NCBI RefSeq assembly: GCF_030285365.1
Contig: NZ_JASVDS010000006.1
Span: 229,370 to 293,369 of the forward strand
Direction of reading: 5' to 3'
DNA from: Roseateles subflavus
GTDB lineage: Bacteria; Pseudomonadota; Gammaproteobacteria; Burkholderiales; Burkholderiaceae_C
DNA: 64,000 nt
Part shown: one piece after another, positions 12,763 to 43,423 of the stretch
Layout: each line of letters begins with the position of its first letter
How positions within the stretch are numbered: the stretch's first letter is position 1
The notes under the pieces: generated by a model
What the model saw: only the letters and a program-made list of their open reading frames with translations
Databases searched by the model: none
Told to the model about the DNA's origin: nothing
Program-made: the position numbers and the translations under genes

Positions 12763-13875
12763 ATGCAGTACCCGCCGTACCCCGACGCCGACCGGGGCGT
12801 TTCACTGTCGGCCACCCCCACCTCGAACGGGCCGGCCCCTTCGAGCCCCCGAGCGCAGGCGCCGCTGGACGCCACCGCCAGCGCCACGGCGGCCGGCGAG
12901 GCCCTGCTGGCGCAGGCGATCCAGTCCTGGCAGACCGGCGATCTGCTGCCCAGCTGCCGCCAGGCGCTGTCCGCGGCCGTCGCGCTCAGCAATGGCCCTC
13001 CCTCCCCCCAGTTGCCGCACGCGCTGCGCCAGGCCGCGCTGGCCTTGTGCGAGTTCGGTCTTGCCGCCGAGGCGCTGCCCCTTGCCCGTACCGCCGTGCG
13101 CTACCTGGAACGCGAGGGCCTGCACGAGCCGCTCTCCGCCTGCCTCAGCTGCCTCGGCCATGTGCACGCGCGGCTCGGCCAGCTCGACCAGGCCGAGCTG
13201 CTGCACATGCGCGCCCTCTCCCTGGCGCGCGAATCCATCGACAGCGCCGACCGCATGCGGGCCTACACGAACCTCATCGTCTCGATGTCGGCTGCCCATG
13301 AGCAGGCCCTGGAGCGCAACGACGAGGAGGGCCGCGTGATGGCGCGGCTCGCGCTCCGCCGCGCCGAGCGCCAACTGGGCGGCGCGCGCTCCCTCGCGCA
13401 GGACGGACGCCTGCAGGGCGGCTTCCAGGGCGTGCTGAAGCTGGCTGTCGCCCACCTGCTGGTGCTGCTGCACCGGCTGGACGAGGCGGAGACGATGCTC
13501 AACCAGCTGCTGTCGCTGTGGTCGCAGGACGAGAAGACACGCTACTGGCGCTGGTCAGCCCTGGAAAGCATGGCCGAGCTGCTGAACCGGCGGGGCCGCC
13601 CGGGCGAGGCCTGGCAGCTGCTGCAGGAGCTGCTCCTCGTGCCCGAGTTGCAGAGCAACGTGCAGCTCCATGGCGCGCTGCTGCGGCAGGCCATGCGCTG
13701 CCTGCGCGCCGTCGACAGCCCCGAGACCGCCCAGCGCCTGCAGGCCCTGGAAGCGCAGCGCCGCCAATGGGAGCTGCAGAACGCCCAGGCCGCGGCCGAG
13801 GCGCGCGAGACGCTCGCGCAGGAACTGCACCTCATCCAGCCCTGGATGCAGGCGCTGCTCAGCGCCGAGGACTGA
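12763..13875 (+). CDS. TPR-repeat protein of unknown function
   Basis: A 370-residue, Ala/Leu-rich helical protein. A low-complexity Pro/Ser/Ala leader (residues 1-45) is followed by helix pairs that read as tetratricopeptide repeats, for example LSCLGHVHARLGQLDQAEL and WSALESMAELLNRRGRPGEA, and a C-terminal coiled segment rich in Gln and Glu. No catalytic domain or signal peptide is seen. Similar TPR arrays often sit in front of GGDEF domains in this bacterial group, but none follows here. Its 3' end overlaps the convergent regulator by 17 bp. Confidence 0.75.
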   Translation: MQYPPYPDADRGVSLSATPTSNGPAPSSPRAQAPLDATASATAAGEALLAQAIQSWQTGDLLPSCRQALSAAVALSNGPPSPQLPHALRQAALALCEFGLAAEALPLARTAVRYLEREGLHEPLSACLSCLGHVHARLGQLDQAELLHMRALSLARESIDSADRMRAYTNLIVSMSAAHEQALERNDEEGRVMARLALRRAERQLGGARSLAQDGRLQGGFQGVLKLAVAHLLVLLHRLDEAETMLNQLLSLWSQDEKTRYWRWSALESMAELLNRRGRPGEAWQLLQELLLVPELQSNVQLHGALLRQAMRCLRAVDSPETAQRLQALEAQRRQWELQNAQAAAEARETLAQELHLIQPWMQALLSAED

Positions 13876-32705: not shown

Positions 32706-34211
32706 ATGCACCCTGACAACAAGAACAAGAAGGTGCGGGGGCTCACGACCGAGTCCGCCACGCGCCCCGATCCGCGTCCGTCCTGGCCGGACCTCCCGCG
32801 GCCCTCATCAGCACGGGCGTCACCGCCGCCGCTGGGCGAGCCTTCGACTGATCGCCCCACCCGCCCGCCACCCGATGGCCCGGCGCCCCTTTTCGACCCG
32901 GCCCCTGCCCGGCACGCCGGCGCGCCGCTGCGGTCCCGGCGCCGCCTGGCTCTGTCCTGGTTCGTGGCCCTCTTCTGGAACATCGTCGCCTTCCCGATGG
33001 CAAGCCTGGCCCTCCTGCGCCCGATCTCCCTCTGGACCTGCGCGATCAGCCTGCTCGTCGTCGGCCTGGGCCTGGCCCTGCTGTGGGAGGCGCTCCACCA
33101 GACCTGGCTCGCCTGGCACTACCAGGGCTCGCGCCTGCAGATCCGGCCGGCACGGCCGCGCGCCGGCCAGCCCCTGTCGATCGACCTGCACCTGCCGCGG
33201 CGCGCTCGGGAGACCTGGCCGCCGGGCGAGACGCCACGCTGGTGCCTGACCCAGCACCGCATCGATGAGACGACGTCCGGCTCGCCCGAGCGGGAGGTCG
33301 AGTGCATCGAGTGTCCCGCCCGCTGGCAGGACCTGGGCGCGGCCGGTCTGCACCTCTCGGCCCGTCTCGTGGTGCCCGCCGACGCGCCGCCCGACGGCAG
33401 CCCGCGCGGCCGCGAGACGGTGGCCTGGCGACTGAGCCTGCGCACCGCCGACGGCCGGATCCTGCAGGACTACGGCGTGCCGGTCGCCGGCGGCGATCCG
33501 ACCCACCTGAGCCCCGCCAGCGCGCCGGCCTCGCCCACGCCGCCGGACCGCTTCGCGCCCACCAGCGGCCCCGCCCCAGCCGTCGACATCCCCCCCATGC
33601 CGCCCGATGCGCGCCCCCCGCGGCTGCCACCGGCGGTGCAGTGGCACGAGACACCCGCCGCGGGCCGCCTGGTCTTCGCGCAGGCCGGCTGGCGCGGGGT
33701 GGGCGGGCTGGCGCTGCTGTGCGCCCTGGCCGTGGCCCTGCCGTCGCCGGGCGGCAGGGGCGGGCTGTCGCTGCTGCTGCTCACCGCCAGCCTCGCCCTG
33801 GGGATGCACGGCCTGACCCGGCACTGGACGCTGTGGGTGCACGACGAAGGCCTGCTCCTGGAGCGGCGCTCATGGCTGTGGCTGACGCGGGTGTCCCTGC
33901 CGGCGTCCGCGCTGCAGGGCCTGTCCCGCCGGGAGACGCACCAGCGCCGGCGAAGCGGCCGCCTCCAGGATTTCCACGCCCTGCACACCTCGGCGCCGCT
34001 CGCGGACGGGGGCACGCGGCTGAGTCCGGGCCTGCCTGGCCGGGAGAGCGCCGAGGCCCTCGCCGGCTTCCTGCGCTGGGCCTTTGCGCAGCGGCAGGGG
34101 CGCTTCAGCCCCGGTGCCCGGCGCGACGTCCGGCGCACCAGCGTCTCGCAGCCCGGTTGGGGGCTGGCGCTGCTGGTCGCCGTGCTGGTTTGGCTGCTGC
34201 AGCGTCACTGA
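32706..34211 (+). CDS. Membrane protein of unknown function
   Basis: A 501-residue protein. A Pro/Arg-rich cytoplasmic leader (1-80) is followed by two helices (about 83-104 and 108-129), a soluble region of about 200 residues with a proline-rich linker, two more helices (about 335-373), a second soluble region and a C-terminal helix (GWGLALLVAVLVWLLQ). I recognise no family; the soluble parts are beta-rich with several Arg-Gln-Trp patches. It is preceded by four tandem 11-bp repeats and stands alone between two terminated or regulated neighbours. Confidence 0.7.
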   Translation: MHPDNKNKKVRGLTTESATRPDPRPSWPDLPRPSSARASPPPLGEPSTDRPTRPPPDGPAPLFDPAPARHAGAPLRSRRRLALSWFVALFWNIVAFPMASLALLRPISLWTCAISLLVVGLGLALLWEALHQTWLAWHYQGSRLQIRPARPRAGQPLSIDLHLPRRARETWPPGETPRWCLTQHRIDETTSGSPEREVECIECPARWQDLGAAGLHLSARLVVPADAPPDGSPRGRETVAWRLSLRTADGRILQDYGVPVAGGDPTHLSPASAPASPTPPDRFAPTSGPAPAVDIPPMPPDARPPRLPPAVQWHETPAAGRLVFAQAGWRGVGGLALLCALAVALPSPGGRGGLSLLLLTASLALGMHGLTRHWTLWVHDEGLLLERRSWLWLTRVSLPASALQGLSRRETHQRRRSGRLQDFHALHTSAPLADGGTRLSPGLPGRESAEALAGFLRWAFAQRQGRFSPGARRDVRRTSVSQPGWGLALLVAVLVWLLQRH

Positions 34212-34346: not shown

Positions 34347-34438
34347 TTTGCGACACTCTCTCGTCTGTTTCATTGCGTCCGCCGCCTTCTGCCAGGAGGA
34401 GCGTCGGGTGGTCAGCTCCAGGTTCCTCCCCTCTTCCG

Positions 34439-37400
34439 ATGCTCATTGCCGGTTACCGCCAGACCGACGTCATCTACGCGAATGCCGACACCGTGGTGGC
34501 GGCGGCCGTGGCGCCGGATGGCGAGCGTGTCGTCCTCAAGTACCCCGACAGCGAGCAGCCGGCACCCGAGCTGCTGGCCCGCTGGCGGCATGAGTTCCAC
34601 ACCCTGCAATCGATCGACTCCGAGTGGGTGGTCAAGGCGCGCGCCCTGCACCAGGACGGGCGCAAGCTGGTGCTGGCCATGGAGGCCTTCGCCACGAGCA
34701 GCCTCGCGCAGCTGATCGAGGGCCAGCACCTCGATCTGGGGGAGAAGCTGGGCCTGGCCCTGCAGCTGTGCCGCGCGCTCAGCGACGTCCACGCTCACCG
34801 GCTGATCCACGGCGACGTCGCGCCCAAGAACGTGCTGGTCGACCTGCGCCAGATGCGCCTGAAGCTCTGCGACTTCGCGCTGTCCTCGCCGCTGGACCGC
34901 GAGGAGGCGCCCCCGGGGCCGGGGCTGCGCGGCACGCTGGACTACATCTCTCCCGAGCAGACCGGCCGCACCAGCCTCGAGGTGGACTACCGCAGCGACT
35001 TCTATTCGCTGGGCATCACGCTCTACGAGCTCTTCGCCGGCCGCCGACCCTTCCTGCTGAGCGACCCCATGGCCCTGCTGCACGCGCAGCTTGCCGTGAT
35101 GCCGACACCGCTGCACCTGCTCGATGAGAGCATCCCTGCCCCGCTCTCGCGCGTCGTGCAGAAGCTGCTGGCCAAGTACCCCGATGAGCGCTACCAGAGC
35201 AGCTACGGGCTGTTGGAGGACCTCGAGCAGTGCGCCCGCGACTGGGCGCACCGCCGCCACATCGACGACTTCGAGCTCGGCCGGCATGACACCCCCGAGC
35301 GCTTCTGCATCGCCCAGAAACTCTACGGCCGCGAAGCCGAGGCGGCCGCCATGCTGGAGGCCTTCGAGCGGGCGGCGGCCGGGCGGGCGGAGCTCCTGCT
35401 CGTCAGCGGGGCCTCGGGCATCGGCAAGACGGCCCTGGTGGCCGAGCTGCACCGGCCCGTGCTGGCCCGGCGCGGCTACTTCCTGCGCGGAAAATGCGAC
35501 CAGTACCGCCGCAACGAGCCCTATGCCGCGCTGTGCCAGGCCTTCCAGCCCTTCGTCGAGCTGCTCGCCTCCGAGGGCGAGGAGCGCCGCAGCTACTGGC
35601 GCGACACCCTGCGCCTGGCCCTGGGCGACACCGCCGGCACGGTGGCTGCGCTGCTGCCGCAGCTGAGCCTGCTCATCGGCGAGATCCCCGCCCTGCCCGC
35701 GCTGCCCGCCGCCGAGAACGAGCAGCGCTTCCACTTCGCCTTCGCCGCCTTCACCCGCGCCCTGGCAGACAGCGCCCATCCCATTGCGCTGTTCCTCGAT
35801 GACCTGCAGTGGGTGGACGGGCCGAGCCTGCGCCTGCTGCAGCACCTGCTGGCGGACCCGGAAGGCCACTGCTGCCTGCTGGTGGTCGGGGCCTTCCGCG
35901 ACCAGGAGGTGGATGACGGCCACCCGCTGCAGCAGATGCTGCTGAGCCTGCGCCAGGCGGGTGTGCCCGCACCGGGGCGCCTGCACCTGGATCACCTGCA
36001 GTCCGAGCACGTCTCGCAGCTGATCGCCGACAGCCTGCACAGCAAGCCGGAGGACATCGAGGCCCTTGCGGAGCTGTGCGTCGAGAAGACCCGCGGCAAT
36101 CCCTTCTTCCTCAACCAGTTCCTGCGCCGCCTGCATGCCCTGGGCGACCTGCGCTATGAGCGACGCAGCGGCCGCTGGGCCTGGGACATGACCCGCATCC
36201 GCCAGCGTGACATGACGGACAACGTCGTGACGCTGATGCTGGACGGCATGCGCGGCCTCGCCCCGCTCACGCAGCGCCTGCTGGCCAATGCGGCCCACCT
36301 CGGCGAGAGCTTCTCGCTCAGCGAGCTCATGGCCGTGAGCGACCTCGACGCCGATGCCTGCGCGCGCGCCCTGTGGCCCGCGCTGCAGGCCAGCCTCGTG
36401 CTGCCGCTGGACGAGGGCTACAAGTTCACCGGCACGCCGGCGCTGCTGGCCGAGGCCCGCTACCGCTTCCTGCACGACCGCGTGCAGCAGGCCGCGCATG
36501 ACCTGACCCCGCTGCATGACCTGGCAGCGCTGCAGCTGCGCTGCGGCCGCCGCCTGCTGGCCGCCAGCAACGAGGCCCAGCGAGAGCAGCGGCTCTTCAG
36601 CATCCTGGCCTGCCTCAATGCCGGCCGCGGCCTGATGCACGAGCCGCAGGAGCTGGCCACGCTGCGCCGGCTCAATCTGCGTGCCGGCCTGCGGGCCAAG
36701 GCCGCCTCGGCCCACGCCACCGCGGTGGACTTCCTTCGCCACGCCCATGCCCTGCTGCCCGAGGACGCCTGGGAGCAGGACCCGGACGGCACGCTGGCGC
36801 TGTACCGCGAGCTCTCGGAAGCCGAATACCTGGCTGGCAACTTCAACGCGGCCGAGCGCCTCTACCCGCTGGCCCAGGCCGCCTGCCCCTCGGGCGACGG
36901 GCGGGCCTTGCTGGGCCTGGTGCAGGCCGAGCAGTACCACATCCAGGGCCGCTTCGGCGATGCCTTCACCGTGCTGCTCAAGGCCCTGGAGGAGATCGGC
37001 CGCCCCTTCCCCGCGACCGAGGAGGCGGCCCAGGCGCTGTTCCCGGACGAGTTCGCCGCCACCGAGCAGCAGCTCGCGGACCAGGGCGAGGACGCGATCC
37101 TGCGCGCCCCCGAGATGCAGGACCCGCGAGCCCTGCTCGAGATGCGCCTGTGCATGGCGCTGTCCTACGCGAGCTACCAGACCAGCCGCTTCGCCGCCTT
37201 CGTGCTGAACACCTGCCGCATGATGAGCACGACGCTCGCGCACGGGCAGAGCGACCTCAGCTGCATCGCCTACGTGGCGCACATGACCTCCCGCTCGGTC
37301 ATGCAGCGCCCCTACACCGAGTGTTATGCGCTCGGCCACCTCGCGCGCCTGCTGGCCGAGCGCCGAGGCGCGGCCTACTTCCGCATCACCGTCTACCAGT

Positions 37401-39463
37401 ACTTCAGCGCCTTCTACCAGCACTGGTGCGAACCGCTGTCCGCCGCGATCCGGCAAGTCGAGCTGGGCTGGGAGCTGGGCCAGAGCGGCACCAACCCGCT
37501 GGCGGCCGGCTACTGCGCGCTCCTGAGCGCCGTCAACCATTTCGCGCTGGGCACGCCGCTGGACGAACTGGAGGTGCACTGCGAGCGCGGGATCAAGTTC
37601 CTGAACAGGACGCGCCAGCCGGCGACGGAGTCCATGCTGCGCCACGGCGTGCTGCAGCCGCTGCTGGCACTGACCGGGCGCACGCTGTCGCCCCTGAGCT
37701 TCGACACCGAGGCCTGCCGCGCCAGCGCACTGCTCGAGGCCCAGCCGCTGCAGCCGAGCATCCCGCTGGCGCTGATGGTCGCGGCGCGCCTGCGCCACAG
37801 CTACCTGCTGCGGGACGCCGAGGGCTGGCGCCAGGCCCTGCCCCTGCTGCCCATGGTCGCCCTGTGCCTGCCTGACAGCCCCTCGCTCGTGGAGAGCAGC
37901 TTCTATTCGGCGCTCGGCCATCTGCGCAGCGGTTTCCCGACCGACGACACCGCGATCGACACGGCCCGCCAGCTGCTGACCCGCTTCGAGACCTGGGCAC
38001 GCCACGGGGAGACCAACTTCCTGCACAAGCAGCTGCTGATCGCCGCCGAGCTGGCCCGCGCCGAAGGCCGGGACGAGGCGGCGATGGCCTTCTACAGCCA
38101 GGCCGTCGAGCAGGCGCAGGCCAGCGGCTTCGCGCCCTGCGCGGCACTGGCCAACGAGCTCTACGCCGACTACTGGACCGCCAAGGCCCAGCCGCAGCTC
38201 GCCCGCAACTTCATCCGCGAGGCCCACTACCACTACCGCCAGTGGGGCGCCGTCGTGAAATGCCGCCAGCTCGAGGCGCAATGGCCCGGCCTGGCCTTCT
38301 CCAGTGCCCGCGGCCCGCAAGGCAGCCAGAGCCGCAGCAGCCCGACCTACCGCGACTCCCTCGACCAGATCAGCCGCCTGGACCTGCACTCCCTGCTCAA
38401 GGCCAACCAGCTGCTCACCCAGGAAATCCAGCTCGACGCGCTGCTGCCCCAGATGCTGGGCGTGCTGCTGGAGAACGCGGGCGCCGAGCGCGGGGCCATC
38501 GTGCTGGAGGACGAAGGACGCCTCATCGTCGAGGTCGTGGGCGGTGTGGACGAGCATCACCGCCTGGTCTCGAGCCGCATCGCGCGCCCGCTGGACGAGG
38601 TCAACCGCGGGAGCGAGGCCCTGCTGCCGAGCAGCCTGATCGAGTTCACCAAGCTCAGCCGCCGCACCCAGCGGCTCAACCGGCCCGCCGAGGACGAGCG
38701 CTTCGCGCAGAGCCGCTACCTGCGGCAGTGCCAGCCCAAGTCCGTGCTGTGCCTGCCGGTGCTCAACCAGGGCAAGCTCGCGGCCGTCATCTACCTGGAA
38801 AGCCGGCAGCTGGAGAACGCCTTCACGCCGCGCCATCAGCAGACGCTGGAGTTGCTGAGCTCGCAGGCCGCCATCTCGCTGGCCAATGCGCGGCTGTACG
38901 AGCAGCTGGAGGAGAAAGTCGAGCGCCGCACGCAGGAGCTGCGCCAGATGAGCATGCGCGACGGCCTCACGGGCATCGCCAACCGACGCGCTTTCGACGA
39001 GCGCCTTGCCATCGAATGGCGGCGCAGCCAGCGCCATGGCACACCGCTGTCCTTGCTGATGCTGGACATCGACCACTTCAAGCAGTTCAACGACCACTAC
39101 GGCCACCTCGAGGGCGACCGCTGCATCAAGACGGTGGCGCAGCTGCTGCAGGGCGTGGCCAGCCGGGGCAGCGACCTCGTGGCGCGCTACGGGGGCGAGG
39201 AGTTCGCGCTGCTGCTGCCGGACACGGAAGCGCCCGCGGCCGAGCGCCTGGCGCAGGCCTGCCTGGACGCCATCGAGGCGCTGGCCATCCCGCACGCCAA
39301 GTCCGCCGCCGGTCCGCATGTGAGCCTGAGCCTCGGCTGCAGCACCTTGCAGGCCAGCGAGGCCAGCACGCCGGAGATGCTGCTGAGCCACGCCGACCAG
39401 GCGCTATACCGCGCCAAGCGCGGCGGACGGCGCCGCTGGACGCGCTTCGACCCCCAGATCTGA
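34439..39463 (+). CDS. Multidomain sensor: Ser/Thr kinase - AAA/TPR - GAF - diguanylate cyclase
   Basis: A 1674-residue cytoplasmic protein. Residues 1-285 form a protein-kinase domain with Lys34, catalytic-loop HGDVAPKN (Asp126) and DFA (Asp145) instead of DFG. A STAND/AAA ATPase follows, with Walker A GASGIGKT at 324-331 and Walker B ALFLDDLQWVD near 455. A long TPR-like helical region leads to a GAF domain (about 1330-1490) and a C-terminal GGDEF domain: GGEEF at 1585-1589 with I-site RGSD five residues before. It should make c-di-GMP under control of the kinase/ATPase part. I chose the ATG at 34439; an in-frame TTG lies 66 bp upstream and no strong Shine-Dalgarno decides between them. Confidence 0.9.
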   Translation: MLIAGYRQTDVIYANADTVVAAAVAPDGERVVLKYPDSEQPAPELLARWRHEFHTLQSIDSEWVVKARALHQDGRKLVLAMEAFATSSLAQLIEGQHLDLGEKLGLALQLCRALSDVHAHRLIHGDVAPKNVLVDLRQMRLKLCDFALSSPLDREEAPPGPGLRGTLDYISPEQTGRTSLEVDYRSDFYSLGITLYELFAGRRPFLLSDPMALLHAQLAVMPTPLHLLDESIPAPLSRVVQKLLAKYPDERYQSSYGLLEDLEQCARDWAHRRHIDDFELGRHDTPERFCIAQKLYGREAEAAAMLEAFERAAAGRAELLLVSGASGIGKTALVAELHRPVLARRGYFLRGKCDQYRRNEPYAALCQAFQPFVELLASEGEERRSYWRDTLRLALGDTAGTVAALLPQLSLLIGEIPALPALPAAENEQRFHFAFAAFTRALADSAHPIALFLDDLQWVDGPSLRLLQHLLADPEGHCCLLVVGAFRDQEVDDGHPLQQMLLSLRQAGVPAPGRLHLDHLQSEHVSQLIADSLHSKPEDIEALAELCVEKTRGNPFFLNQFLRRLHALGDLRYERRSGRWAWDMTRIRQRDMTDNVVTLMLDGMRGLAPLTQRLLANAAHLGESFSLSELMAVSDLDADACARALWPALQASLVLPLDEGYKFTGTPALLAEARYRFLHDRVQQAAHDLTPLHDLAALQLRCGRRLLAASNEAQREQRLFSILACLNAGRGLMHEPQELATLRRLNLRAGLRAKAASAHATAVDFLRHAHALLPEDAWEQDPDGTLALYRELSEAEYLAGNFNAAERLYPLAQAACPSGDGRALLGLVQAEQYHIQGRFGDAFTVLLKALEEIGRPFPATEEAAQALFPDEFAATEQQLADQGEDAILRAPEMQDPRALLEMRLCMALSYASYQTSRFAAFVLNTCRMMSTTLAHGQSDLSCIAYVAHMTSRSVMQRPYTECYALGHLARLLAERRGAAYFRITVYQYFSAFYQHWCEPLSAAIRQVELGWELGQSGTNPLAAGYCALLSAVNHFALGTPLDELEVHCERGIKFLNRTRQPATESMLRHGVLQPLLALTGRTLSPLSFDTEACRASALLEAQPLQPSIPLALMVAARLRHSYLLRDAEGWRQALPLLPMVALCLPDSPSLVESSFYSALGHLRSGFPTDDTAIDTARQLLTRFETWARHGETNFLHKQLLIAAELARAEGRDEAAMAFYSQAVEQAQASGFAPCAALANELYADYWTAKAQPQLARNFIREAHYHYRQWGAVVKCRQLEAQWPGLAFSSARGPQGSQSRSSPTYRDSLDQISRLDLHSLLKANQLLTQEIQLDALLPQMLGVLLENAGAERGAIVLEDEGRLIVEVVGGVDEHHRLVSSRIARPLDEVNRGSEALLPSSLIEFTKLSRRTQRLNRPAEDERFAQSRYLRQCQPKSVLCLPVLNQGKLAAVIYLESRQLENAFTPRHQQTLELLSSQAAISLANARLYEQLEEKVERRTQELRQMSMRDGLTGIANRRAFDERLAIEWRRSQRHGTPLSLLMLDIDHFKQFNDHYGHLEGDRCIKTVAQLLQGVASRGSDLVARYGGEEFALLLPDTEAPAAERLAQACLDAIEALAIPHAKSAAGPHVSLSLGCSTLQASEASTPEMLLSHADQALYRAKRGGRRRWTRFDPQI

Positions 39464-39518: not shown

Positions 39519-40058
39519 TCAGGTCTTGAGGGCCGCCTTCAGGGCCTCGAGCAACTGCTTCACGAGACCCTGGATGCGCTCATCCACCAGCTCGTTCTGC
39601 TCGTCGAACAGGCCCGCCGTGAAGGCATTGCAGAAGACCTCGGGCTTGTTCAGCACGTGGAGGTCCAGGCACACGGCCACCTGGCGCAGGTGGTACTGCG
39701 CCCGCGACGTGCCCATGCCGCCGCCCGCACCCATCAGGCCCACGGTCTTGCCGGCGAGCAGGTGGTTGTCCTTCTCCCGCGAGGCCCAGTCCAGCGCATT
39801 CTTGAGCGCCGGGGCGATCGAGTAGTTGTACTCCGGGCAGGCCAGCAGCAGACCGTCGGCGGCGCGCAGCTGCTCGAAGAAGCGCTGCACGGCGGGCGGC
39901 GGCGTGGGGTGGTCCGCGTTGTAGAACGGGAACTGGCTGATGTCCGCCATCTCCAGCTGCAGCCCCTCGGGCGCGTGGCGCAGGGCGTAGCGGGCCAGGG
40001 CCGTGTTGCGCGAGGCGGCGCGCAGGCTGCCGCTCATCACCAGGATCTTCTTCGTCAT
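39519..40058 (-). CDS. NADPH-dependent FMN reductase
   Basis: A 179-residue flavodoxin-fold protein starting MTKKILVMSGSLRAASRNTALARYA, the FMN phosphate loop of the NAD(P)H-FMN/quinone reductase family (ChrR/YieF type), with CPEYNYSIAPALKNALDW and GKTVGLMGAGGGMGTSRAQ as later signatures. It would reduce FMN, quinones or similar acceptors in the cytoplasm. The ATG at 40058 has AAGGAGCAC upstream. It lies 64 bp downstream of the lipoxygenase gene on the same strand and may be cotranscribed with it. Confidence 0.92.
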   Translation of the reverse strand: MTKKILVMSGSLRAASRNTALARYALRHAPEGLQLEMADISQFPFYNADHPTPPPAVQRFFEQLRAADGLLLACPEYNYSIAPALKNALDWASREKDNHLLAGKTVGLMGAGGGMGTSRAQYHLRQVAVCLDLHVLNKPEVFCNAFTAGLFDEQNELVDERIQGLVKQLLEALKAALKT

Positions 40059-40122: not shown

Positions 40123-42303
40123 TCAGATGCTGATGCTATTCGGGATCTGCGACGGCAGCTGGAAGGGGTATTCCACCGGGCGCAGGCGGTTGCGCCCGCG
40201 GATCTCGCGCTCGGCCAGGGCCAGGTCCGTCTGGAGGTCCGCCACGAGCGGGCCCACACGCGGATCCTGGAAGTACGGGTTGCGCGGGTTGTGCTCGTAG
40301 TGGCCGAAGGTGTCGTACTGCACGCCGGAGAGCAGGTACTCGAAGGAGAAGGTGTACAGCGACACGTCCAGCGGCGGGTACCAGCGGATGCAGTCCTGCT
40401 CGCTGGCCACGACGGTGCTGCGCGCCGGCGCGGGATCGTAGAGCGTGCCGGCCACCGCGGGCATGTAGGACATCAGCGGGTACTGCGCGTAGTTGACGGA
40501 CGCGTGCTGCGGGCCGGCCACGTAGATGATCTGCGCCACCACCTCGATGAGGTAGGCCAGGCTCTCGATGCGCCAGGGCCGCTTCTTGTCGCCGGTGGCC
40601 TTGAGGCCGCGCATGCCCTTGAAGCCCGCGAACTGCGGCGCCGTCATCTCGTGGATCCAGTTCTGCAGCTCGTAGTCCCCCGCCACCTCCGCATCGCTCG
40701 TGTAGTAGAGGCGCAGGTAGCGGTCGACGAAGCGGTGCGTCGCCTGCCACAGGAGCATCGTGTCGTCGCGGAAGGGGAACTGGGGCAGGCCGTCCACGCC
40801 GCGCAGGCGGAAGAGGCGCTCGGGGTGGTTGTCGTCCCAGCGGTAGGCCTGGTGCGCCTGCGCCAGCACGCCCAGCGTGCACTCGATGGCCGGGCCGACA
40901 TTCGTCGCCACCACGCCGCCCGGGATGATGAGGCTGTGGATGGCGGAGTCGTTGATGTTGATGGTGAAGCGGAAATGCGGCGCGAGCAGCTTCAGGATCG
41001 GGTGCCCCTCGGCCAGCTGCCGGTGGGCGGCGACGACGATGGGCTCGATGATGAGGTGGCAGGCGCCCAGGTGGGCGATGGCCTCGTGCTGGATGGCCGC
41101 GGCCACGTTCACGAAGTACTTCGCGATGCGCCACTTGAAGCCCTGGGCGTCGTTGGCGTTCCCGGCGTCATGCGGGGTGTAGATGGGCGCGGTCTCGGCA
41201 TCGTGCTGCTGCGCGAGCTGCACGGCAATCGGCTGCAGCACGCCGTCGGGCAGCGCCGGGTAGCCGGCCGGCGGCGTGGTGTTCCAGAAGAAGAGCGCGA
41301 TGGGCGCGGCCATGTAGCGCTGCTCGCCGTGCAGTGGATCGGCCCAGGCGCCGTTGAGCAGCGCGTAGTCGCACACGAAGAGGCGCCCCTGCTCCGCGGC
41401 CTGCGCCAGCGTCAGGCCGGCCTGGCCGGTCTCCTTCTGCAGCATCGCGTCCGTGACCGGCATCTTGGCCAGCAGATCGGCCAGGGGCATCTTCTGGATG
41501 CCTTCCATGGGGTCGTCCACGTCCGGCGCGACCGGCGCCGGCACCACGGCGCGCAGCATCGCCGTGTTGTAGCCGGCCGTCTGCAGCCAGCCGAAGAACC
41601 AGTCCTGCTGGCAGGGCTTGCCCTGGCCCTGGGGCATCCAGGGCTGCTCCTGGATGGACAGCATCAACGGCGTGGGCAGGCTCACGAAAAGGCGCTCGTA
41701 GTCCTCGATGCCCTGGGCCTGCAGGTAGTTGCGGCCGGGCTCCTCGCTGAGCATGTCGAAGAGCGTGGATTTCAGGAAGGCCGTGGGGCCGTTTTCCAGG
41801 AACTCCTTGAAGACCGCCTCGAGGCCGACGGCCATCTTGGCCAGGTCCTTGGGCAGGTTCTGCAGGCTCTCCAGTGCCGAGGGCAGCGCGGCGATCGCCT
41901 CGTAGAAGGCCTTCAGCTCCTCCAGGTCCCGCAGCGGGTGCAGCAGGCTGAAGTCCTTGCTGAGCTTCTCGTAGGTCTCCTCCACGCGACGCAGCGCGGC
42001 GGTGGGCACGTCGGCCAGCAGCTCCCGCTCCAGCAGCATCATCACGACGCGCTTGAAGTTGTCCGTCAGCTCCAGGAAGACCTGCACCACCTGCGCCTCG
42101 TAGTCGACGCTGAACTTCTCGCTGTCCGGCAGGTCGGCCGACAGCGGCACGCCTTCCAGGTAGCTCTGCATGTAGTTGTACTGCGTGCGGGCGATGGAGA
42201 GCTGGAAGGCGCGTGCCTTCTGCGCCTCGGCGTCATGGTGCTGCGGCAGGCTCGGCACCTGGGCCGGGTTGGCGTTGCTGGCGGGGGTCTGGAAGAGGCT
42301 CAT
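40123..42303 (-). CDS. Bacterial lipoxygenase
   Basis: A 726-residue iron lipoxygenase. The five iron ligands of the family are all in place: His406 and His411 (HEAIAH, the Hx4H pair), His600 and Asn604 (HASVN), and a C-terminal Ile726 in PNSISI. It would add molecular oxygen to polyunsaturated fatty acids to give hydroperoxides. No signal peptide or PLAT domain is seen, unlike the exported LoxA of Pseudomonas aeruginosa; the N-terminal 300 residues are mostly helical and divergent. The ATG at 42303 is chosen over a longer Arg-rich extension. An inverted repeat lies 28 bp upstream. Such genes are patchily distributed, which suggests horizontal spread. Confidence 0.95.
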   Translation of the reverse strand: MSLFQTPASNANPAQVPSLPQHHDAEAQKARAFQLSIARTQYNYMQSYLEGVPLSADLPDSEKFSVDYEAQVVQVFLELTDNFKRVVMMLLERELLADVPTAALRRVEETYEKLSKDFSLLHPLRDLEELKAFYEAIAALPSALESLQNLPKDLAKMAVGLEAVFKEFLENGPTAFLKSTLFDMLSEEPGRNYLQAQGIEDYERLFVSLPTPLMLSIQEQPWMPQGQGKPCQQDWFFGWLQTAGYNTAMLRAVVPAPVAPDVDDPMEGIQKMPLADLLAKMPVTDAMLQKETGQAGLTLAQAAEQGRLFVCDYALLNGAWADPLHGEQRYMAAPIALFFWNTTPPAGYPALPDGVLQPIAVQLAQQHDAETAPIYTPHDAGNANDAQGFKWRIAKYFVNVAAAIQHEAIAHLGACHLIIEPIVVAAHRQLAEGHPILKLLAPHFRFTININDSAIHSLIIPGGVVATNVGPAIECTLGVLAQAHQAYRWDDNHPERLFRLRGVDGLPQFPFRDDTMLLWQATHRFVDRYLRLYYTSDAEVAGDYELQNWIHEMTAPQFAGFKGMRGLKATGDKKRPWRIESLAYLIEVVAQIIYVAGPQHASVNYAQYPLMSYMPAVAGTLYDPAPARSTVVASEQDCIRWYPPLDVSLYTFSFEYLLSGVQYDTFGHYEHNPRNPYFQDPRVGPLVADLQTDLALAEREIRGRNRLRPVEYPFQLPSQIPNSISI

Positions 42304-42625: not shown

Positions 42626-43423
42626 ATGAAGACACGTCAAGCGCAGGCGGCGGCAACGGCGCGGGAGCCGGCCGCCGCCCCCACGGCCCAGCCCCGGGCG
42701 GCGATCGCGCCGCACACCGCAGGGGCGCTGCAGTCCGCCCTCCATGCATCGCCCCGCATGACGCTGCAACGACAGTCGATCCAGGCCGCGCGCCGCCCCG
42801 CCGTGCCCCTCGAGTCCGGGCAGGCCGTCCCGCCCCCGCAGGCACCGACGCCGGTCTCCGCCCCGCCCATCCAATGCACCCGAACCCGGTTCACCGGCGG
42901 CAAGACCCGCTATGCCAGCCGCACCGGCGGCCGGATCGGCAGTGTGTATGCACAAGATCCCGAGCACCAGGAGAACTACGGCCGCCGGATCCGGCTGATG
43001 CACAAGAGCGGCCCACACGTGTCGAAGCGAAGCAGCTACCGGCACGGACGCGGGGACGCGATCCGTCCGCTGAACGCCGGGCAGGTCAATCGACGCGGCG
43101 AGCGCCTTGTCGAGAGCCGCACCGTCGACGGGCCCATCACGCACACCTCGCGAGGCAGCCTGGGGCACATGCAGCCCCTGAACGACGAGCAGGCCGTCGC
43201 GCTGTACAGGCTCGCCCGGCGCTCCGACGATGCGCGCCCGTCACGCGACGCGTACGAGAATCAGCCGCAGGCCTACCGGCAGGCCAAGGCCGACCATGCC
43301 GACGAATACAACGACCGCATGTGGAACCTGCTGATGGAGGACCGCTTCCAGGACCACGAACTCGGCATGGAGGCACGGGCCCTGCATGAATCCGGCTACG
43401 ACGGCGACGATGAATCCGATTGA
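42626..43423 (+). CDS. Orphan protein with eCIS-cargo-like N-terminal leader
   Basis: A 265-residue, strongly basic, low-hydrophobicity protein. Residues 1-80 are disordered and rich in Ala, Pro and Gln, with ASPRMTLQRQSIQAA at 41-55 and PPIQC at 80-84; this SPR...QRQ...PIQ pattern resembles the leaders of proteins loaded into extracellular contractile injection systems. The C-terminal part (FTGGKTRYASRTGGRIGSVY onward) is rich in Arg, His and Asp and has no family I know; it ends with an acidic tail. No injection-system genes lie in the window. A toxin role is possible but unproven. It is divergent from the lipoxygenase. Confidence 0.65.
   Translation: MKTRQAQAAATAREPAAAPTAQPRAAIAPHTAGALQSALHASPRMTLQRQSIQAARRPAVPLESGQAVPPPQAPTPVSAPPIQCTRTRFTGGKTRYASRTGGRIGSVYAQDPEHQENYGRRIRLMHKSGPHVSKRSSYRHGRGDAIRPLNAGQVNRRGERLVESRTVDGPITHTSRGSLGHMQPLNDEQAVALYRLARRSDDARPSRDAYENQPQAYRQAKADHADEYNDRMWNLLMEDRFQDHELGMEARALHESGYDGDDESD

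Follow-up and report, generated by a model that had tools for sequence, protein, structure and literature searches.

The lipoxygenase gene of Roseateles subflavus (40123..42303, minus strand) lies beside a gene for a giant Ser/Thr kinase-ATPase-GAF-diguanylate cyclase (34373..39463, plus strand; characterised from Pfam domains, motifs and linkage), and the two genes are paired in two bacterial families. Positions refer to the window, the whole stretch of 64,000 nucleotides that was analysed, unless a locus is named. The pairing is kept at 50–70% lipoxygenase identity; it spans two orders or more, and the output domain of the kinase can be exchanged. Lipoxygenases are fat-oxidising enzymes best known from animals and plants; for most bacterial members other than LoxA of Pseudomonas aeruginosa, we know of no obvious substrate or partner. 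The kinase-diguanylate cyclase neighbour is the strongest clue to the function of the enzyme described here. An earlier note on this DNA, whose overall interpretation is partly supported by our analysis, had missed it. Among the papers listed for lipoxygenases with signalling or context, none reported the pairing (subscription journals and preprints lay mostly outside the scope of the search); within the searches made, the pairing is undescribed, and it gives the lipoxygenase a testable function.

The window enzyme itself is a further member of the known lipoxygenase family. Its 726 residues match the Pfam profile PF00305 with an E-value of 3.5e-50 (171.7 bits against a curated cut-off of 23.6); its modelled structure passed a lipoxygenase fold test, and 544 of the 726 residues align with CspLOX2, the mini-lipoxygenase of Cyanothece (PDB 5med/5mee), in a structure comparison. 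The metal-ligand set of three His, Asn or His, and a C-terminal Ile is complete: His406 (codon at 41086..41088), His411 (41071..41073), His600 (40504..40506) and Asn604 (40492..40494), all on the minus strand, are kept in all 120 homologues listed, and the C-terminal ligand Ile726 (40126..40128, minus strand) is Ile in 119 and Val in one of them. The lipoxygenase is full-length and its metal site intact; it is predicted to oxygenate polyunsaturated fatty acids (PUFAs).

Two further minus-strand positions are invariant among the same 120 homologues. Ala454 (40942..40944) occupies the Coffa position, as assigned by alignment to CspLOX2 (Ala300) and from the residue table in the accessible part of PMC5437038, and Ala at this site leads us to predict S products, unlike the bis-allylic 11R product given for CspLOX2 in that source. 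Phe654 (40342..40344) fills the clamp position, which is Leu502 in CspLOX2, again according to the accessible part of PMC5437038, and Ile608 in LoxA. At the N-terminus, four predicted helices (residues 66–171; 41791..42108, minus strand; secondary structure of the model) make up a helical region longer than that of the 569-residue CspLOX2. A Pfam scan at E 0.001 gave PF00305 alone, with no PLAT domain found there, and the alignment to 5-LOX begins at chain residue 94.

By hydropathy, no hydrophobic N-terminal segment was found in the lipoxygenase, whether read from its ATG start or from an in-frame TTG 90 bases upstream, and its sole strongly hydrophobic 19-residue stretch (residues 408–426, mean 1.77) corresponds to the core's iron helix; a cytosolic enzyme is predicted on these grounds. 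Such a segment is likewise missing from all 120 homologues listed (0/120), and the absence of an export signal is by this measure the rule in the subfamily. The earlier note was thus right to describe a complete bacterial lipoxygenase with five visible iron ligands and no signal peptide, but the missing signal is nothing odd for this protein: besides the listed homologues, intracellular bacterial lipoxygenases are already known, MF-LOX1 of Myxococcus fulvus having been characterised earlier (accessible text of PMC6612559). MF-LOX1 resembles the window enzyme in being intracellular, a likeness taken from its description only, and, unlike the window enzyme, comes with no mention of a partner kinase in that accessible text. 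LoxA (PDB 5ir4/4g32; 28–31% identity) differs from the window protein in being exported. According to the portion of PMC6702342 available, it is a secreted enzyme whose targets are host PUFAs. This, together with the fold match, would fit a lipoxygenase that leaves the cell by a route needing no signal peptide and likewise attacks the lipids of a host or prey; given the hydropathy of the window protein and its homologues, we consider such an exit quite improbable.

The partner is a large protein, predicted to be soluble because no 19-residue stretch exceeds a hydropathy of 1.54. Read from a TTG, its open reading frame has 1,696 residues; the likely start, ATG 34439, gives 1,674. Pfam places a Ser/Thr kinase at residues 41–275, an AAA_16 ATPase at 316–501, a GAF domain at 1354–1503 and a GGDEF domain at 1528–1688. 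The kinase core keeps HGD and DFA, a P-loop reads GASGIGKT, and the cyclase domain carries RGSD-(5)-GGEEF, within RYGGEEF. It passed the test for the GG(D/E)EF signature of active diguanylate cyclases, an activity that is putative here. A role in a defence system was considered and rejected, as the 25 PADLOC matches listed for the partner, out of 31, were kinase models lying on its kinase domain; among the matches listed, none fell on the lipoxygenase.

The kinase and lipoxygenase genes converge across a gap of 659 bp in the window. Between them, on the lipoxygenase strand and 64 bp downstream of that gene, lies an NADPH-dependent FMN reductase-like gene (39519..40058, minus strand; PF03358, E 1.1e-39) that is probably co-transcribed with it. 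This gene adjoins the lipoxygenase only within the genus (L023, L024); in locus L026 the FMN reductase match covers 49 residues only and is 8.8 kb away. A divergent open reading frame of 265 residues (42626-43423, plus strand) has no Pfam, NCBIfam or PADLOC match and is unmatched in the compared lipoxygenase loci. It contains the stretch SPRMTLQRQ, which may resemble the leader motifs found in proteins associated with extracellular contractile injection systems.

Within the family of the window's genome, linkage was complete. PF00305 was matched in 13 of 299 genomes at E 0.001, 12 of which pass the cut-off. The rarity of bacterial lipoxygenases noted earlier is supported. The window's subfamily is present in eight of the 299, the other seven at 64–92% identity; two of these genomes (G001 and G002) belong to the same genus as that of the window (G000). 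In all eight loci the kinase gene (59–87% identity) adjoins the lipoxygenase tail to tail, with gaps of 28–722 bp. In the reverse search, which scored the top two candidates of each genome, nine of the 299 genomes had a full-length kinase of at least 59% identity, and the next best reached 36%. The ninth genome, G009, has no lipoxygenase match, and a glutamate dehydrogenase gene adjoins its kinase. Three full-length distant lipoxygenases of the family (28–30% identity; L025, L028 and L030) have no such kinase beside them, although L025 has a 260-residue match to the GGDEF region 2.4 kb away.

The same pairing is found in Alteromonadaceae (the family of L004 and its genome G665), where 14 of 246 genomes match P0002 and 12 of these carry the lipoxygenase subfamily at 49–57% identity. 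A kinase lies within 2.6 kb of the lipoxygenase in eight of ten evaluable loci (L004, L042, L045, L046, L048, L049, L050 and L051), with an epimerase/SDR-type gene in between in L004 and a TonB receptor gene in L050 and L051; L043 and L044 have no kinase beside the lipoxygenase. Linkage counts leave out L047 (a 5.6-kb contig) and L052 (lipoxygenase 190 bases from the contig end), which offer too little sequence, as well as L033 and L034 (partial lipoxygenase matches, no kinase match), the extra lipoxygenase matches in G694 and the lipoxygenase matches in G336. The reverse search yielded nine genomes whose kinases have 35–42% identity with E-values no higher than 5.5e-273, and the subfamily occurs in seven of the nine; G871 and G799 have the kinase and lack it. 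In G701, G741 and G705, which have the lipoxygenase, no such kinase reached E 1e-60. Similarly built kinases are common in the absence of a lipoxygenase: at the same threshold, 56 of the 246 genomes have one.

Several arrangements within these loci are worth recording. In L050 (1368-11095) and L051 (1295-11096), kinase, TonB-dependent receptor and lipoxygenase genes follow one another on the same strand, about 120–150 bp apart, which suggests one transcription unit with lipid uptake. The near-identical, kinase-free loci L043 and L044 carry a patatin-like phospholipase gene (12833-13720 and 1742-2656, respectively) about 2 kb or less from the lipoxygenase. A second lipoxygenase of G665 (L053), 36% identical, has no kinase beside it.

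Co-presence of the two genes departs strongly from chance, with the caveat that kinship is ignored in each of the following tests. Counted as genomes with both, lipoxygenase only, kinase only and neither, the figures are 8/0/1/290 for the window's family (Fisher p 6e-15) and 7/5/2/232 for Alteromonadaceae (Fisher p 3e-9). A kinase adjoins 16 of 18 subfamily loci and none of nine other lipoxygenase loci (L025, L028, L030, L037, L038, L039, L053, L054 and L055; Fisher p 1e-5); with L036 counted among the others, the comparison becomes 16/18 against 1/10 (Fisher p 7e-5). The distribution is patchy, as might be expected if both genes had travelled on one transferred block without any functional tie. 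However, when 12 other window genes were tested at E 1e-10, none recurred beside the lipoxygenase as the kinase does: beyond the same-genus loci L023 and L024, L029 has matches to acnB and to the gene at 32706, L027 to the latter, L031 to a DUF1275 gene and L026 to the 49-residue piece of the FMN reductase, with no match in the Alteromonadaceae loci. As the pair also persists at the lipoxygenase divergence given above, across genera and orders and in three orientations, hitch-hiking appears very improbable.

Phylogeny places most of the linked kinases together. In a tree of 51 kinases, a quick tree that carries long-branch and composition warnings, 18 sequences form one group (SH-aLRT 100) made up of 14 of the 16 lipoxygenase-adjacent kinases, three without a lipoxygenase (L035, L076 and L077) and L078, from the mixed assembly G694, whose lipoxygenase sits on another short contig. 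The 14 thus share one supported clade that spans the window's family and Alteromonadaceae, and all 30 kinases taken as unlinked, from the absence or distance of a lipoxygenase in their genomes, fall outside it. The lipoxygenase-adjacent kinases of L050, L051 and L036 lie in another tree group, and the group of L050 and L051 includes unlinked members as well. The output domain varies within the 18: GGDEF in 15, all of which keep GGEEF and the RxxD site, and a histidine kinase in L004, L042 and L078 (the last assigned by its 93% identity to L004). The Ser/Thr kinase domains of L004 and L042 carry Asn in place of the catalytic Asp. The lipoxygenase tree, built by a careful method and containing no eukaryotic rows, joins the window, L023 and L024 with L029, L026 and L027, L031 with L032, and L048 with L045, L046 and L049; judged by eye, it looks congruent with the kinase tree. 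The earlier note had asked for a phylogeny as a check on horizontal gain, and among the bacterial rows of this tree the lipoxygenase groups with relatives that have the same neighbour.

A large protein database extends the linkage. It listed 120 of 297 lipoxygenase matches and 120 of 555 kinase matches, with the longest contig of each. Among the matches listed, 61 lipoxygenase clusters have a contig of 8 kb or more, and 17 of these equal a kinase cluster in the exact size of the contig, against a mean of 0.32 and a maximum of 2 in a control shifted by 1–50 bases, which is strong but indirect evidence that both clusters lie on one contig. Seven of these 17 contigs are only 8.2–17.6 kb in size, so the two genes cannot lie far apart on them. 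Two same-organism pairs were found among the matches listed, in Paucibacter sp. APW11 and in Pseudomarimonas salicorniae (order Lysobacterales).

Since the lipoxygenase stands beside the kinase in distantly related bacteria, the pair is a likely candidate for a circuit from oxidised fat to c-di-GMP. On the simplest reading, the oxygenase and the signalling protein, both soluble, would share a small molecule. The lipoxygenase would take a PUFA, more probably imported (an algal, protist or plant lipid) than self-made, and give an S-hydroperoxide; the GAF or TPR/ATPase regions of the partner may sense this product, or the redox or lipid state that it reports. The partner would respond with c-di-GMP in the GGDEF type, or with a phosphorelay in the histidine-kinase type of some relatives, and so might decide whether the cell swims freely or lives attached. 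We favour an oxylipin-to-c-di-GMP signalling pair of this kind, formed by a cytosolic lipoxygenase and its kinase-ATPase-GAF-diguanylate cyclase partner, with a confidence that falls somewhat short of even. Three kinase genomes without the lipoxygenase (G009, G871 and G799) and three lipoxygenase genomes without the kinase are exceptions that count against it. So do the usually convergent layout, which is not that of one operon, the separate tree group of the L050 and L051 kinases, the GGDEF-region match near the L025 lipoxygenase and the frequency of similarly built kinases in genomes that have no lipoxygenase. More tentative is the broader proposal of a two-gene oxylipin module, widespread in Burkholderiales, Lysobacterales and Alteromonadaceae, in which a kinase-STAND ATPase-GAF neighbour with exchangeable outputs would read the hydroperoxide made by the cytosolic enzyme; if true, this would be a bacterial counterpart of lipoxygenase-based eicosanoid signalling.

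The nearest rival turns the relationship around: the partner would control the expression or activity of the lipoxygenase, which would be a catabolic or detoxifying enzyme for environmental PUFAs. It draws on the same linkage evidence, and on several features of individual loci: the single-strand order of kinase, TonB receptor and lipoxygenase in L050 and L051 would fit regulation together with lipid uptake, the genes of L042 share a 213-bp gap on their start side, and the phospholipase gene of L043 and L044 lies close to the lipoxygenase. Yet it would be unusual for a large soluble cyclase to serve a single enzyme as its private regulator, most of the gene pairs converge, and pairs of the GGDEF type involve no transcription factor. 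Control of the lipoxygenase by its partner seems to us somewhat unlikely.

The earlier remark that the substrate is unclear still stands. In the window's genome, the PUFA synthase marker PfaD reached 22.6 bits at best (cut-off 449), and four FA_desaturase genes exceed their cut-off, one of them of the DesA family (NF049918). Another of the four, the desaturase P0123 (L019:1300-2352), has a QLEHHLFP box, which we take to mark a front-end type desaturase, and it could make a diene of relevance to an endogenous substrate. These desaturases would suit a lipoxygenase that oxidises the cell's own desaturase-made lipids for membrane remodelling or a stress response. Against this, no PfaD-type synthase scored above the cut-off, and although P0123 has matches in 24 of 299 genomes, it is near-identical only in G000 and G001 (89%), reaches at most 43% elsewhere in the family and has no match in G002, a carrier of the lipoxygenase. 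A supply of PUFA through a dedicated desaturase was rejected because P0123 is not a consistent partner of the enzyme, and oxidation of the cell's own lipids seems improbable.

The signalling pair that we favour has partial precedents. Loss of wspF raises c-di-GMP. In P. aeruginosa, expression of loxA occurs preferentially in biofilms, the gene was induced in a wspF mutant (PMC6702342, text available in part), and oleate-derived oxylipins act as autoinducers (accessible text of PMC6377657). The latter system, ODS, offers a proposed parallel in that a bacterial enzyme makes a signalling oxylipin, but as described in that text it relies on oleate diol synthases together with a LysR receptor, whereas the window pair consists of a lipoxygenase and a kinase-cyclase. 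The cyanobacterial dual Ser/Thr-His kinases HstK/cbSTKIII, in the part of PMC2176072 available, share with the partner an N-terminal Ser/Thr kinase and a GAF domain before the output; they end in a histidine kinase where the window partner has GGDEF, although some relatives in its tree group (L004 and L042) also have a histidine kinase at the C-terminus. The recurrent partner gene raises a testable question, namely whether the lipoxygenase product alters kinase-cyclase output. If it does, signalling by lipoxygenases, so characteristic of animals and plants, also exists in bacteria, where both a candidate receptor and a second messenger can be named, and the pair may let aquatic and soil bacteria read algal, plant or protist lipids.

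Lipoxygenases outside the subfamily show other contexts. In the family of G580, a mini-lipoxygenase of 26–28% identity occurs in five of 42 genomes, and in four of the five loci a histidine-kinase-type relative of the partner lies a few kb away, beyond a RoxA-like cytochrome gene; we give this more distant case less weight. In all five loci (L036, L089, L090, L091 and L092) the mini-lipoxygenase adjoins the gene for a membrane-anchored RoxA-like haem protein, with PF21419 in all three neighbours scanned (L036, L089 and L090). Gln takes the place of the first iron His in L036, L089, L091, L092 and L055, while L090 keeps His; in all six the Asn ligand position is His. The lipoxygenase-like proteins of L037, L038 and L039 match PF00305 weakly and end in SPWN, not Ile, and their first ligand and Asn positions are unrecognisable in the alignment.

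A mobile location was considered and rejected. No lipoxygenase was found in phage records. Seven plasmid records hold a distant lipoxygenase (less than 60% identity), one of which covers at least 80% of the query, and the annotation around four of the seven, taken from incomplete PLSDB gene tables, includes no such kinase. On a Pantoea ananatis plasmid (NZ_CP054911.1; L095), the lipoxygenase gene stands directly before lysozyme and lysis genes.
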